From Bradyrhizobium sediminis (GTDB lineage: Bacteria; Pseudomonadota; Alphaproteobacteria; Rhizobiales; Xanthobacteraceae): DNA of 64,000 nt. The notes under the pieces were generated by a model that did no database searches, was not told the origin of the DNA, and saw only the letters and a list, made by a program, of their open reading frames with translations. The translations under genes were made by a program, and so were the position numbers. Of this stretch, positions 52,673 through 59,030 are shown piece by piece. Location: the NCBI RefSeq assembly GCF_018736105.1, contig NZ_CP076135.1:5144001-5208000 (forward strand), read 5' to 3'. Each line of letters starts with the position of its first letter. The first letter of the stretch is position 1.

Positions 52673-54304
52673 TCACCCCGCCGGCGCGAAGGTCTCCGCC
52701 CGCGCCAGTGCCCAGGCGTCGCGGAAGCGCGGATCGCTGGTGCCGTCGATCAACTCGCCCGGGCGAAGCGACGGATAAAGTTGCGCGAATGTCTGCACCT
52801 CGGTGGTCGAGCTTCGCTGCGAGAAATGGATCGGCCGCAATTCGCGCGGATGGTCAAGACCGGCGGCGGCAAGCAGCTCCGCCAGCGCATGCAGCGTCGC
52901 ATGGTGATAATTGTACACCCGCTCGATCTTGTGCGGCACCACCAGCGCGCGGTTGCGCGTGGGATCCTGGGTGGTAACGCCGGTCGGACAGCGGTCGGTA
53001 TGACAGCTCAGCGACTGGATACAGCCCAGCGAGAACATGAAACCGCGCGCCGAATTGCACCAGTCGGCGCCGATCGCCATGGCGCGCGCCATGTCGAAGG
53101 CGGTCGCGATCTTGCCGGAGGCGCCGAGCCTGATGCGGTCGCGCGCGTTGATGCCGATCAACGCGTTATGGACGAAGTTGACGCCCTCGCGCATCGGCGT
53201 ACCCAGATGATCCATGAACTCCAGCGGTGCCGCGCCGGTGCCGCCTTCATTGCCGTCGACCACGATGAAATCGGGATAGATTCCAGACTGCAGCATCGCC
53301 TTGCAGATCGCGAGGAACTCCCAGGGATGGCCGATGCACAGCTTGAACCCGGCCGGCTTGCCGCCGGACAGCCGGCGCATCTCGGCGATGAACGCCATCA
53401 TCTCCAGTGGAGTCGAGAACGCCCGGTGCGACGCCGGCGAGATGCAATCCTCGTCCATCGCCACGCCCCGGATCTTGGAAATCTCCTCGGAAACCTTGGC
53501 CGCCGGCAGCACGCCGCCATGCCCGGGCTTGGCGCCCTGGCTGATCTTGAGTTCGACCATCTTGATCTGGTCATCGGAGGCAACGCTGGCGAATAATTCG
53601 GGATTGAAGCTGCCGTCGCGGTTACGGCAACCGAAATAGCCCGAGCCGATTTCCCAGATGATGTCGCCGCCGTTTTCGCGGTGATAGGGACTGACACCGC
53701 CCTCGCCGGTGTCGTGGGCGAAGCCGCCCTTCTTCGCCCCCGCATTCAGCGCGCGCACTGCGTTCGGGCTGAGCGCGCCGAAGCTCATCGCGGAAATGTT
53801 GAAGACGGAAGCCGAATAGGGCTTGGCGCAATCCGGGCCGCCGATGGTGACGCGGAATTTCTCGCTGGCATGGGTCTTGGGCGACATCGAATGGTGCATC
53901 CATTCGTAGCCCTCGCGATAGACATCCTCCTGGGTACCGAACGGCCGCTTGTCGAGCTCCATCTTGGCGCGCTGATAGATCACCGCGCGGGTGTCGCGGC
54001 TGAACGGCATGCCGTCCTTCTCGCTCTCGAAGAAATACTGCCGCATCTCCGGCCTGATCTCTTCCAGCAGGAAGCGGATATGCGCCGAGATCGGATAGTT
54101 GCGCAAAACCGCGTGGCTCTTCTGCGTGAGATCGCGAAGGCCGAGCAATGTGAGGGCGCCGAAAATCAGGATCGGCACCAGGATCAATTCCCACACCTTG
54201 GTGTTGTCATCCACGATCCCGATCGCGAGCAGCAAGGCCGTGACGACGGCGCAGATCGTCAGGACGATGAAGCGCGGAGAGAACGGAAGCATCAGCGTTT
54301 CCAT
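52673..54304 (-). CDS. membrane-anchored glutamate-synthase-like FMN protein
   Basis: 543 residues. Two hydrophobic helices at 8-57 are followed by a glutamate synthase central/FMN domain (90-510): ISAMSFGALSPNAVRALN, GGDIIWEIGSGYFG, KISQGAKPGHGG, and the iron-sulfur cysteine set CIQSLSCHTDRCPTG. The glutaminase and large multi-domain parts of GltB are absent. Such single-domain proteins have no established reaction; a glutamate synthase of archaeal type or a membrane redox role is possible. Confidence 0.85.
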   Translation of the reverse strand: METLMLPFSPRFIVLTICAVVTALLLAIGIVDDNTKVWELILVPILIFGALTLLGLRDLTQKSHAVLRNYPISAHIRFLLEEIRPEMRQYFFESEKDGMPFSRDTRAVIYQRAKMELDKRPFGTQEDVYREGYEWMHHSMSPKTHASEKFRVTIGGPDCAKPYSASVFNISAMSFGALSPNAVRALNAGAKKGGFAHDTGEGGVSPYHRENGGDIIWEIGSGYFGCRNRDGSFNPELFASVASDDQIKMVELKISQGAKPGHGGVLPAAKVSEEISKIRGVAMDEDCISPASHRAFSTPLEMMAFIAEMRRLSGGKPAGFKLCIGHPWEFLAICKAMLQSGIYPDFIVVDGNEGGTGAAPLEFMDHLGTPMREGVNFVHNALIGINARDRIRLGASGKIATAFDMARAMAIGADWCNSARGFMFSLGCIQSLSCHTDRCPTGVTTQDPTRNRALVVPHKIERVYNYHHATLHALAELLAAAGLDHPRELRPIHFSQRSSTTEVQTFAQLYPSLRPGELIDGTSDPRFRDAWALARAETFAPAG

Positions 54305-55609: not shown

Positions 55610-56383
55610 TCAGCGCTCGACGAACGCCTTCTCAATGACGAAATGGCCGGGCTCGCCGTGGCTGCCTTCGAGAAAGCCGCGGGTCTCGAACATCGTCCGC
55701 AATTCTTCCAGCATCGCCGGGCTGCCGCACATCATGATGCGGTCGGTCTCGATGTCGAGCGGCGGCTGGCCGATGTCGTTGAACAGCTGCTCCGAGGTGA
55801 TCAGGTCGGTGATGCGGCCGCGGTTGCGGAACGGCTCGCGCGTCACGGTCGGATAATACTGCAGCTTCCCGGTCAAGAGCGGTCCGAACAATTCGTCGTC
55901 GCGCAGCTTCGCCACCAGCTCTTCGCCATAAGCGAGTTCGGAGACCTGCCGGCAGCCGTGCACCAGCACGATGCTCTCGAACCGGTCGTAGACGTCGGGA
56001 TCCTTGATCAGGCTCGCGAACGGCGCCAGACCCGTTCCGGTCGACAGCAGCAGCAGCCGCTGGCCCGGGATCAGGTTGTCGGCGACCAGCGTGCCGGTCG
56101 CCTTACGTCCGACCAGGATGGTGTCGCCTTCCCTGATCTTCTGGAGCTTGGAAGTCAGCGGTCCGTCGGCGACCTTGATCGAGAAGAACTCCAGCGATTC
56201 CTCGTGATTGGCGCTCGCCATGCTGTAGGCGCGCAGCAGCGGACGGCCATCGACCTCGAGGCCGATCATGGCGAACTGCCCGTTCTGGAATCGGAAGCCG
56301 GAATTGCGGGTGGCGGTAAAGCTGAAAAGCGTATCGGTCCAGTGCCGGACGGAAAGAACTTTCTCTCGATGGAATGCGCTCAT
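55610..56383 (-). CDS. fpr: ferredoxin-NADP reductase
   Basis: 257 residues, usual length for Fpr. FAD site RAYSMAS (50-57), NADP site STGTGLAPFASLI (about 113-125), and carboxy end HFVIEKAFVER typical of the class. It moves electrons between NADPH and ferredoxin or flavodoxin in the cytoplasm. ATG at 56383. Confidence 0.92.
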   Translation of the reverse strand: MSAFHREKVLSVRHWTDTLFSFTATRNSGFRFQNGQFAMIGLEVDGRPLLRAYSMASANHEESLEFFSIKVADGPLTSKLQKIREGDTILVGRKATGTLVADNLIPGQRLLLLSTGTGLAPFASLIKDPDVYDRFESIVLVHGCRQVSELAYGEELVAKLRDDELFGPLLTGKLQYYPTVTREPFRNRGRITDLITSEQLFNDIGQPPLDIETDRIMMCGSPAMLEELRTMFETRGFLEGSHGEPGHFVIEKAFVER

Positions 56384-56686
56384 GTGTTTTCGTTTTTCCT
56401 GTCGGCCTGACGTGGAACGAACGGTTGTTCGGCCTCGAGAGAGGCAAAAAACCCCTGCAATGTCTGATGATTTGGCGCTTCACCTACGCCAAAACGAGAG
56501 ATAGTCAACCAGCCTTGAAGCGCAATTGCGCGCTCGGAATGGCAGTCGATTCATCTCGAAGACCGGTTCAGAAAATCTTCATCGCCTGAGCGGCGCATAC
56601 GCAATTAACTTGCTGAAATACGTGCCGTTGCGGCAGGAAATTGCCCCCGCGACCTCCGAAATTTCGTTAAAGATAAAGCATCAAGA
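56384..56686. other. divergent promoter region of fpr and the ATP-grasp gene
   Basis: 303 bases with no gene. A 12-base palindrome gcgcaattgcgc at 56520-56531 and a short hairpin gcctc-gaga-gaggc near 56433 are visible. Neither is assigned. Confidence 0.45.
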
Positions 56687-57721
56687 ATGGAATGCCAGAT
56701 CGCCGGATATTGCATGCGCGACTTGAAAGATTTTCGAGCGGGAAAACCGGGCTTCTATCCGGACCAGGCGGTCTATGCCGCCTATGCCTGCGCCGAATTC
56801 GGCCTCGCATTCGCGGATCGCGACGGCGGAACGGGGCTGGTGTTCAGCGTCAGTTCGACGGCCGGCTGCGTTCATTTCGGCGCCGGGCGCTGCTCATGCT
56901 ATCCGCAGAACAACGCCACCGCATCGACGCTGGCGTCGGACAAATACTTCACCAGCCGGATTCTCGAACAGGCCGGCGTCGCGACGTTGGGCGGCGAATA
57001 TTTCTTCCTTTGGGACCGCCACCGCGCCCATCGCCCCGCGGGGCATGAGCGCGAGGATGCGCTGGCGCATTTCCGGAAACTGGGTGGATCGGCTTTCGTC
57101 AAACCCCTGACCGGTTCGCGCGGCGATTTCGCGCAGGCGGTGCATGACGAGGCCTCGCTGGTGCGATATCTCGGCGAGGTCGCGCCCTACTACGACGCGA
57201 TCCTGATGCAGCCCATCGTCGCGGGAACTGAATACAGGGTGTTCCTGCTCGACGACGAGGTGCTGTTTACGGCGCGCAAATATCCGCCCTCGCTGCTGGG
57301 CGACGGCGTCCGCCGCATCCGCGATCTCCTGACCGCGCACAATGACGGCTTGCGATCTCGCGGCCTTTCGCCGGTTGCCGTGAGCAACGATCGCGGCACG
57401 GCGCTCGATGCCGTGCTAGCGAAGGGCGAGCGCTGGGACATTCCCGGACGCATGAACCTGAGCGCCGGCGGCACGATGCGGCTCGAACCGCTGCCTTCCG
57501 AACCCGCGCTGGCGCTGGCGAAGCAGGCCGTGAGCGCGCTCGGACTGCGCGTCGCCGCCGTCGACCTGTTCACCGATATCGGCGGCGACCCCGGCGCGGT
57601 ACGCGTGATCGAGGTCAACTCCAACCCGTCGATCCGGCTCCTGGAGCAATCGCAGCGCGGCGACCTGATCCTGAAAATCTGGCACCATACCTTTGCCGCG
57701 ACGGGACTGCTCGGTGTTTGA
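56687..57721 (+). CDS. ATP-grasp ligase of the cyanophycin-synthetase type
   Basis: 344 residues. ATP-grasp features: SDKYFTSRILEQAGV, AFVKPLTGSRGD (lysine and glycine-rich loop), MQPIVAGTEYRVFLLDDEV, GDGVRRIRDLLTAHN, GRMNLSAGGT, and metal site RVIEVNSNPSIR. The GDGVxxIxxL and NLSxGGT signatures are those of the CphA middle domain, which ligates an amino acid to a peptide carboxylate. No Mur-ligase half is attached; that function is encoded by the next gene. Substrates unknown. An ATG at 56714 is an alternative start. Confidence 0.82.
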   Translation: MECQIAGYCMRDLKDFRAGKPGFYPDQAVYAAYACAEFGLAFADRDGGTGLVFSVSSTAGCVHFGAGRCSCYPQNNATASTLASDKYFTSRILEQAGVATLGGEYFFLWDRHRAHRPAGHEREDALAHFRKLGGSAFVKPLTGSRGDFAQAVHDEASLVRYLGEVAPYYDAILMQPIVAGTEYRVFLLDDEVLFTARKYPPSLLGDGVRRIRDLLTAHNDGLRSRGLSPVAVSNDRGTALDAVLAKGERWDIPGRMNLSAGGTMRLEPLPSEPALALAKQAVSALGLRVAAVDLFTDIGGDPGAVRVIEVNSNPSIRLLEQSQRGDLILKIWHHTFAATGLLGV

Positions 57722-59030
57722 CCTCCCGAAATATGGCGACGGCGTCTGCCTGGCCCGGATGGCCGAGCTGCTCGAGGCGCTGGCGATCGATCGCGAGCGC
57801 CTCGCACGCGTCTCCGTCGCCGTCACCGGGTCCAACGGCAAGGGGTCCACCGCGGCGCTCTGCGCCGGCATCGGCCGCGCCTATGGCCTGCGCACGGGCA
57901 TGTTCACCTCGCCGCATCTCTATCGTTTCAACGAGCGGGTTCAGCTCGATGGCGCTCCGATCGGCGATGACGATCTGGCGCGGCTGAAACGGCGGATCGA
58001 GGCCGCGATCGCCGAGGTCTCACAGCGGCGTGGCGAGCAGTTCGGCGCTTTCGAAGCGCTGTTTGCGCTGGCCTGCCTGCATTTTCAGGAGTGCGAATGC
58101 GAGTTTGCCGCCTTCGAGGCCGGCATCGGCGGGCGCTACGATCCGGTACGTCTGATCGGCGCGCCCGTCGCCTGCGTCACCTCGGTCGATTACGAGCACG
58201 TCGAACTGCTCGGCCATTCCCTTGAATTGATCGCCTCCGACAAGAGCGACGCCTGCGCCGCCGGCGGCACTGTCATCTATGGCGAGAATTGCCGGACGCT
58301 GCGGCCGCACCTGATCGAATACAACCGCAATCGCGACATTGCCTCGCTGTTCGTTCGCGAGCAGATCGGCATCGACAGCGAAGTCGCATCGGCGTCGGGG
58401 CTGCGGTTCGATTATCAGTTCGGATATTACGATTTTCGTCACGTCGAAATCGGCTTGCCCGGCGCGTTTCAGATCAATAACGCAGCCATTGCGATCACCC
58501 TGTTCCTGCTCTGGCTGCAACGCACGCACCCCCGCAAGGCTCTCGACCGGATTGAAGCCGCCGTGCGAGCCGGTCTGAGCGATACGCGTTGGCCCGGTCG
58601 CCTCGAAACGATCAGGCAAGATCCGCTCACGGTGATCGACGTCGGCCATACGCCCGACGGCGTCCGGCAAGCGCTCGCCGGCCTCAAGGCGATCCATGGC
58701 GCGGACGGCTGGGTTCTGGTGACCGGCGTTTCCCGCGACAAGAAGGCCGAGGAGATCGCGGGCGCGCTGGCGCCGTCCTTCGACACCATCATCTGTACGC
58801 GCGCGCACCACAAGGGCGCCGACGCCGAGCTCATCGCCCGGGCGGTGCGGGCGGCCAATCCGCAGGCCGCCGTTCACAAAGCTGCCACCATCGAGGACGC
58901 GGTCGGTATCAGCGAAGTACTCGCCGCCGCCCAAAATCGAAAGATCTACGTCGCCGGCGGACTGTTCCTAGCGATCGAATACGCGGTCGTCGCGCGAGGT
59001 GGCCGTGCGGAGGAACTGACGTTCTTTTGA
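57714..59030 (+). CDS. FolC-like Mur ligase family protein
   Basis: 438 residues. P-loop TGSNGKGST (38-46), TSPHLYRFNERVQLDG and FALACLHF are FolC-like, then AFEAGIGGRYDPVRL, a middle domain with INNAAIAI, and a carboxy domain starting VIDVGHTPDGVRQALAGL. FolC adds glutamate to folate, MurE-type enzymes to peptides; here the partner is an ATP-grasp gene whose stop overlaps the start by 8 bases. GTG at 57714 is taken; a TTG at 57693 is also open. Likely forms one pathway with its neighbour, not the housekeeping folate enzyme. Confidence 0.8.
   Translation: MFDLPKYGDGVCLARMAELLEALAIDRERLARVSVAVTGSNGKGSTAALCAGIGRAYGLRTGMFTSPHLYRFNERVQLDGAPIGDDDLARLKRRIEAAIAEVSQRRGEQFGAFEALFALACLHFQECECEFAAFEAGIGGRYDPVRLIGAPVACVTSVDYEHVELLGHSLELIASDKSDACAAGGTVIYGENCRTLRPHLIEYNRNRDIASLFVREQIGIDSEVASASGLRFDYQFGYYDFRHVEIGLPGAFQINNAAIAITLFLLWLQRTHPRKALDRIEAAVRAGLSDTRWPGRLETIRQDPLTVIDVGHTPDGVRQALAGLKAIHGADGWVLVTGVSRDKKAEEIAGALAPSFDTIICTRAHHKGADAELIARAVRAANPQAAVHKAATIEDAVGISEVLAAAQNRKIYVAGGLFLAIEYAVVARGGRAEELTFF

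Follow-up and report, generated by a model that had tools for sequence, protein, structure and literature searches.

A FolC-derived Mur ligase paired with a stand-alone ATP-grasp ligase in Bradyrhizobium: a possible two-subunit amide-ligase machine convergent with cyanophycin synthetase

Two overlapping genes in a 64,000-nucleotide stretch of the Bradyrhizobium sediminis genome (the window) encode a stand-alone ATP-grasp ligase and a FolC-like Mur ligase. We lean towards reading the pair as a dedicated two-enzyme amide-ligase system acting on one product. The fuller proposal, that this is an undescribed two-subunit machine, convergent with cyanophycin synthetase, in which a FolC side-branch and a stand-alone ATP-grasp ligase make a peptide or cofactor conjugate from central metabolites, is tentative and is held with somewhat less than even confidence.

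Enzymes of both families activate a carboxylate as an acyl phosphate. In the proposed scheme, the FolC-derived Mur ligase would use ATP to activate the carboxylate of a small acceptor and would join an amino acid to it; before or after this step, the ATP-grasp ligase, a member of the CphA/GshF clan, would activate a terminal carboxylate and attach a further amino acid, which in the Bradyrhizobium type may be acidic. The scheme would follow the logic of cyanophycin synthetase, with the pair put together independently, one half from a branch of FolC and the other from a distinct ATP-grasp branch. We infer the shared product, the order of the steps and the amino acids added, and most likely both ligases make one small conjugate. 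The FolC-like branch has many members, and those compared carry substitutions at positions that do not vary in canonical FolC. Should the product turn out to be a new metabolite, many genes annotated as folC may be misnamed, and a small two-protein pathway would be present in 11 of 11 high-quality genomes from one genus. Open-licence full texts, a literature that leaves subscription papers mostly uncovered, contained no account of the pair, which agrees with the original suggestion of an undescribed product.

A conserved, overlapping gene pair

The source genome is a single contig of 5.45 Mb, and the named close matches of the ATP-grasp protein are from Bradyrhizobium, including B. sediminis at 93% (family Nitrobacteraceae). 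The features of the locus are as follows.

55610..56383, minus strand: fpr, encoding a protein like ferredoxin-NADP reductase (152 bits; equivalog cut-off 390)
56384..56713, no strand: divergent intergenic region of 330 bp between fpr and the gene pair, presumed promoter
56714..57721, plus strand: stand-alone ATP-grasp ligase, predicted amide ligase, 335 aa (open reading frame, profile scores, relatives' starts, AlphaFold model, kept catalytic residues)
57714..59030, plus strand: FolC-derived Mur ligase, 438 aa, GTG start, distinct from canonical folC (open reading frame, profile scores, relatives' starts, AlphaFold model, tree)

The start noted originally for the ATP-grasp gene, 56687, gives a protein of 344 aa with nine extra residues; the start was set at 56714 because the closest homologues (P0001–P0005) have 335 aa and the longest ATP-grasp frame in most syntenic relatives begins at the equivalent of this position (332–335 aa). 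The mechanical frame of the Mur ligase begins at TTG 57693, and the frames of most relatives are 437–439 aa long and begin with MFDLPK, a start that in the window is GTG 57714 and gives 438 aa; the genes therefore overlap by 8 bp (57714–57721). The end of the Mur ligase at 59030 was correct as first noted. The reported architecture of two separate ligase genes with overlapping ends is thus borne out, both genes lying on the plus strand and their linkage recurring in distant Alphaproteobacteria, and the motifs quoted for the ATP-grasp protein are present.

Median dN/dS is 0.195 for the ATP-grasp gene and 0.231 for the FolC-like gene (37 sequences), compared with 0.101–0.115 for three neighbour genes (31–34 sequences); both ligase genes are constrained, yet evolve about twice as fast as these neighbours. 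Because full-length homologues occur in many genomes and median dN/dS is about 0.2, the unit is real beyond chance.

In a genus sample of 36 genomes including the source genome, the FolC-like gene was found in 12, all 12 of which also carry the ATP-grasp family; the two are adjacent in 11 (the locus of G033 is cut by a contig end), and in the twelfth, G006, the ATP-grasp gene lies elsewhere. The other 24 genomes have no FolC-like gene, and their ATP-grasp matches, if any, are at most about 36% identical. Among named genome contigs, from Bradyrhizobium or from MAGs under other names, the pair is adjacent and on one strand at 36 of 36 ATP-grasp loci, which were found with Bradyrhizobium-type patterns and at least seven of which are contigs of genomes counted elsewhere. 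In a second genus of the family, 16 of 18 genomes, among them all 11 of high quality, have the FolC-like gene, and the ATP-grasp gene is adjacent in 15 of the 15 loci returned.

More widely, four of 289 genomes in the class sample carry the FolC-like gene (G000, G099, G182 and G286), all with the ATP-grasp family; the pair in the last three shares 35–40% identity and lies in other neighbourhoods. The same four genomes have both genes in the phylum sample (398 genomes), where the remaining ATP-grasp matches are mostly in frames of CphA or N-acetylglutaminylglutamine (NAGGN) synthetase length, and they recur in the order sample (297 genomes) together with ten weaker ATP-grasp matches (156–198 bits); nine of these ten loci were inspected, and no Mur ligase of the FolC-like branch lies beside them. 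The genus, class and phylum counts include the source genome, and in the large scans only part of each genome's first-look candidates was scored. A search for relatives of G099 returned one genome of 115, G099 itself, and that for G182 returned two of two, both already counted. Four of 41 ATP-grasp matches agree in contig size and source tag with FolC-like matches listed (3126, 5531, 4573 and 2734), which suggests that these too are linked to FolC-like genes.

The predicted linkage thus stands in one direction: every FolC-like carrier checked has the ATP-grasp family. The reverse fails in three of the seven class-sample genomes with an ATP-grasp family member (175–629 bits), namely G063, G165 and G126, in the last of which the locus is at a contig end; since these relatives lack a FolC-like partner, the ATP-grasp ligase can act alone.

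In G006, the locus holds the FolC-like gene by itself, and an ATP-grasp relative (42% identity, L044) is found beside genes for PEP carboxylase and an acyl-CoA ligase. Between fpr and the open FolC-like frame of this genome (L043:11304-11774), comparison by eye recovered no more of the ATP-grasp gene than a short stretch similar to its beginning, so the adjacent copy appears to have been deleted. This single case is weakly compatible with dependence of the FolC-like protein on an ATP-grasp partner. A second, truncated FolC-like copy (residues 232–445, 73% identity) occurs in G031 at about L039:5885-6526, roughly 3 kb from the intact pair.

The FolC-derived Mur ligase

The Mur protein scores 239 bits against the FolC model (TIGR01499; cut-off 163), so that it passes the FolC subfamily score, and 40 bits against CphA (TIGR02068; cut-off 850, which is set for the full-length protein and which a single half could hardly reach). 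Its AlphaFold model (pLDDT 94.8) has an FPGS fold: the nearest solved structure is FPGS 2vor (TM 0.84), and the top 17 PDB matches are all FPGS or FolC. The P-loop and the positions of the catalytic Lys, His and Glu are likewise those of FolC/FPGS. It is not the only folC of its genome, an explanation raised originally and discarded here, because a canonical folC is located at C1:85177-86406 (356 bits). The same search of the genome returned the window gene (239 bits) and a further weak match (34 bits) that is read as MurE. The window protein is 31% identical to the canonical FolC.

In a maximum-likelihood tree, a branch with support 98/97 separates canonical FolCs, together with P0132's divergent N-terminal half, from the FolC-like rows and MurE; MurE and the P0132 half are both long branches, and the window protein falls outside the canonical clade. 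The tree, which omits the duplicate rows L083, L084 and L086, does not establish the FolC-like rows as a single clade, and their grouping is not rejected (p-AU 0.375). With a subfamily profile, FolC-like members of the 289 class genomes score 672–764 bits and canonical FolCs at most 189. In a separate domain-score comparison the score gaps are partly circular, since its profiles were built from family members, and domains that matched no more than 200 profile positions were left out (60 and 99 domain rows beforehand). On scores and phylogeny, the Mur half is placed as a FolC side-branch. In P0132 (753 aa), a divergent Mur ligase and a FolC-like protein of the window branch are fused in tandem, a hint that the neighbour in that lineage may be another Mur ligase.

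Three non-Bradyrhizobium FolC-like queries gave 2822 protein matches at E ≤ 1e-60 (7996 candidates scored). Among the 120 matches listed, names extend the branch to Azospirillum, Myxococcales, Cyanobacteria (Symploca and Cyanothece) and Acidobacteria (Blastocatellia), and the named proteins are called folate synthases or hypothetical proteins. Searches for plasmid- or virus-borne copies returned only one dihydrofolate synthase at 32% (H1), and such copies were rejected.

Residues were compared, in E. coli numbering, between 26 FolC-like rows and 12 canonical FolCs (E. coli, the source genome's own, that of L113 and nine canonical matches from the class-sample search); this canonical set leans towards likeness to the FolC-like branch because the nine came from matches to the FolC-like profile. 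E146, H173, K188, D302, H305 and K336 are unchanged in all 26 FolC-like rows, F124 and D154 are also unchanged, and the SPHL loop is retained. At the positions of T122, N157 and S403, where the canonical proteins have T, N and S in 12 of 12, the FolC-like rows have G, R and G, respectively, in 26 of 26, and I28, invariant in the canonical set, is never I. The D29 position is G in every FolC-like row, N306 is replaced throughout (T 14, S 12), A155 is replaced in 24 rows (S 11, P 8, V 4, T 1; A is kept in 2), and H409 is E in 26 of 26, as it is in 2 of 12 canonical proteins. By clade and by invariant residues, then, the window protein does not belong among the canonical FolCs. We take F124, A155, I28, L30 and D154 of E. 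coli FolC to be its pterin contacts, of which the Phe and Asp are kept in FolC-like rows, the Ile is not and the Ala seldom is; S403 is presumably the equivalent of MurD Ser415. The corresponding descriptions, in the parts of the sources consulted, are of a FolC pterin stacked between Phe, Ala, Ile and Leu and bonded to a conserved Asp (PMC4790348), and of D-Glu bound by MurD Ser415 (PMC3527612). Because the catalytic residues are unchanged while candidate pocket residues are replaced, we expect the FolC-like protein to be an active ligase whose acceptor, and perhaps also whose amino acid, has changed.

The main competing explanation, which we regard as unlikely though worth serious weight, is that the FolC paralogue and the ATP-grasp ligase modify folates, making an unusual tail on the pterin cofactor, such as one of mixed gamma- and alpha-glutamyl linkages, much as other cofactors receive alpha-glutamates from MptN and CofF. 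Descent of the Mur half from FolC, and retention of F124, D154 and the SPHL loop, fit such an activity, as do the alpha-linked distal glutamates reported for E. coli folates in the portion of PMC1971073 consulted; the change of I28, T122 and N157 in every FolC-like row, and of A155 in most, speaks against it.

The ATP-grasp ligase and comparison with cyanophycin synthetase

The window ATP-grasp protein scores 75 bits against CphA, measured against the same full-length cut-off, and 46 bits against N-acetylglutaminylglutamine synthetase, neither being near the cut-off. RimK, MptN and LysX resemble it in being stand-alone ATP-grasp ligases of similar size, but its scores (42, 31 and 20 bits) fall far below their cut-offs (143, 350 and 276), and it is not assigned to the RimK alpha-L-glutamate ligase family. 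The AlphaFold model (pLDDT 92.7) is nearest to GshF (3ln6) and CphA1 (7wae) at TM about 0.6, and these two are the nearest solved relatives. NAGGN synthetase and GshF share its clan and the GDG, N..S..GG and E.N motifs, whereas their ATP-grasp domains are parts of larger proteins (frames of about 585–757 aa) and the window protein has 335 aa.

In the ATP-grasp tree, a branch with SH-aLRT 97 sets 24 stand-alone rows apart from the rows of CphA length, those of NAGGN length and a second group of stand-alone proteins, so that the window protein is outside the CphA clade and in a different clade from the NAGGN-length rows; support is SH-aLRT only, and GshF is not among the rows. The tree omits L083–L088, L148, L161–L164, L166–L168 and L170, the last of which has an internal stop. 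The second stand-alone group (L172–L180), found in the order, is about 30% identical and lies in other neighbourhoods without a Mur ligase of the FolC-like branch; its nine rows form a clade (SH-aLRT 94). A search of the source genome with the ATP-grasp query found only the window protein itself.

Positions of TeCphA1, with roles taken from the consulted part of PMC9427784, were mapped by profile alignment onto an ATP-grasp alignment of 45 rows (A10). The equivalents of K261, R309, N394, D431 and N452 are unchanged in all 45 rows and that of E450 in 44; aspartate-binding R323 is K or R in 45, and S396 is S in 40. The equivalent of P-loop H267 is R in 39 rows, and that of E215, the inter-protomer primer residue, is E in none. 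R458, which the same source locates close to the aspartate alpha-carboxylate, is R in all 10 Bradyrhizobium-type rows and in 5 of the 35 others. The window protein keeps N394, S396 and R458, has K for R323, and carries T for E215 and R for H267. In the window's type, such a site fits an amino acid with a side-chain carboxylate; an acidic substrate is unproven because the N..S..GG site also occurs in GshF, which adds glycine, and because R458 is not retained in most of the ATP-grasp family.

CphA1 resembles the pair in combining one ATP-grasp unit with one Mur-type ligase, which in the pair would likewise cooperate; the pair differs in comprising two proteins, in leaving no room for the CphA N domain, in its FolC-like Mur ligase and in its separate ATP-grasp clade. 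The idea of a split cyanophycin synthetase as origin, advanced in the original prediction, does not survive this comparison: both trees are against descent from CphA, the Mur protein being a FolC-like side-branch and the ATP-grasp protein lying outside the CphA rows, and a published phylogeny, in the part of PMC11915815 consulted, places the Mur half of CphA near MurE/MurF. From the FolC and CphA scores, both trees and this phylogeny, we conclude that the pair is like CphA in layout and not in descent. A true split cyanophycin or cyanophycin-like synthetase, whose ATP-grasp half would extend a polyaspartate-like backbone while the Mur half decorated side chains to give a storage polymer, is very improbable. 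Neither half clusters with CphA: the model that the Mur protein passes is that of FolC, not that of CphA, and the ATP-grasp protein is outside the CphA rows. The E215 and H267 positions also differ, an N domain would have no space, and the source genome yielded no cyanophycinase. In favour of this reading, the ATP-grasp half is nearest CphA and GshF in sequence and fold, and most aspartate-site residues are kept in the window protein. The reported lack of a cyanophycinase gene extends to the whole source genome, where none was found with a model that matched in 5 of 14 control genomes. The pseudomurein pathway is comparable in that Mur ligases and an ATP-grasp protein occur in conserved clusters for one peptide, and differs in serving an archaeal cell wall and in having a CPS-large-subunit-like ATP-grasp protein and an MraY-like protein where two genes are found here (PMC11915815, consulted in part).

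Gene neighbourhoods of the pair

In the window's family, the pair lies among fpr, a gene with a GltB domain and often a patatin-like gene, with a curcumin-reductase-like gene and an RND pump further on. The reductase gene follows the pair immediately in some loci, but in L049, L051 and L058 the gap is about 2.6 kb or more; the gene is placed outside the unit because its distance varies. As originally described, the presumed promoter region lies opposite fpr, which is divergent with 330 bp between. A consensus scan of this region for sigma-70-type promoters gave no match, nor did Rfam, and a known RNA beside the pair is ruled out by the lack of any gathering-score match in seven relatives and in the window, where the two sub-threshold matches, both inside coding sequence, are to a c-di-GMP riboswitch model in fpr (23.6 bits of 59) and to a snoRNA (23 of 50).

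An all-against-all comparison of open frames (window/L171, L112 and L113/L115) found only the two ligases in common, plus folC by paralogy; some frames antisense to the ligases also matched. The co-occurring hydrolase or transporter suggested earlier was therefore not found, and fpr, the GltB-domain gene, the patatin, the curcumin-reductase-like gene and the RND pump were rejected as partners for want of a match in L112, L113 and L115. As a syntenic neighbour in the window's family only, fpr is probably not part of the system.

Such synteny admits the possibility that the ligases are two independent enzymes kept together by history in a stable chromosomal region. Because synteny with fpr and the GltB-domain gene is conserved there, adjacency in the window's family is partly inherited, and ATP-grasp family members do occur alone elsewhere; history as the sole cause is nonetheless improbable, given that the reading frames overlap, that both genes are absent together from 24 of 36 genus genomes, and that the same pair recurs in three neighbourhoods with no other gene in common (the window's family, G099 and G182/G286).

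Outside the window's family, ABC-transporter permease-like genes and a chemoreceptor-like gene flank the pair of G099, and aroB is close by. The G182 locus runs accD, canonical folC, ATP-grasp gene, FolC-like gene and then trxA on the opposite strand, so that the pair directly adjoins canonical folC. In G063 (L117:9027-10876), an unpaired ATP-grasp gene of the window family is next to thyA, with a GNAT-like frame between and folA nearby. Together with FolC descent, these two folate-linked neighbourhoods are grounds for counting a folate tail as a possible product; neither the window's family nor G099 showed a folate gene next to the pair, G063 is without a FolC-like partner, and the two neighbourhoods may be coincidence. 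The GltB-domain gene of the window (52673-54304), syntenic with the pair in the window's family, encodes a stand-alone GltB-type glutamate synthase domain protein.
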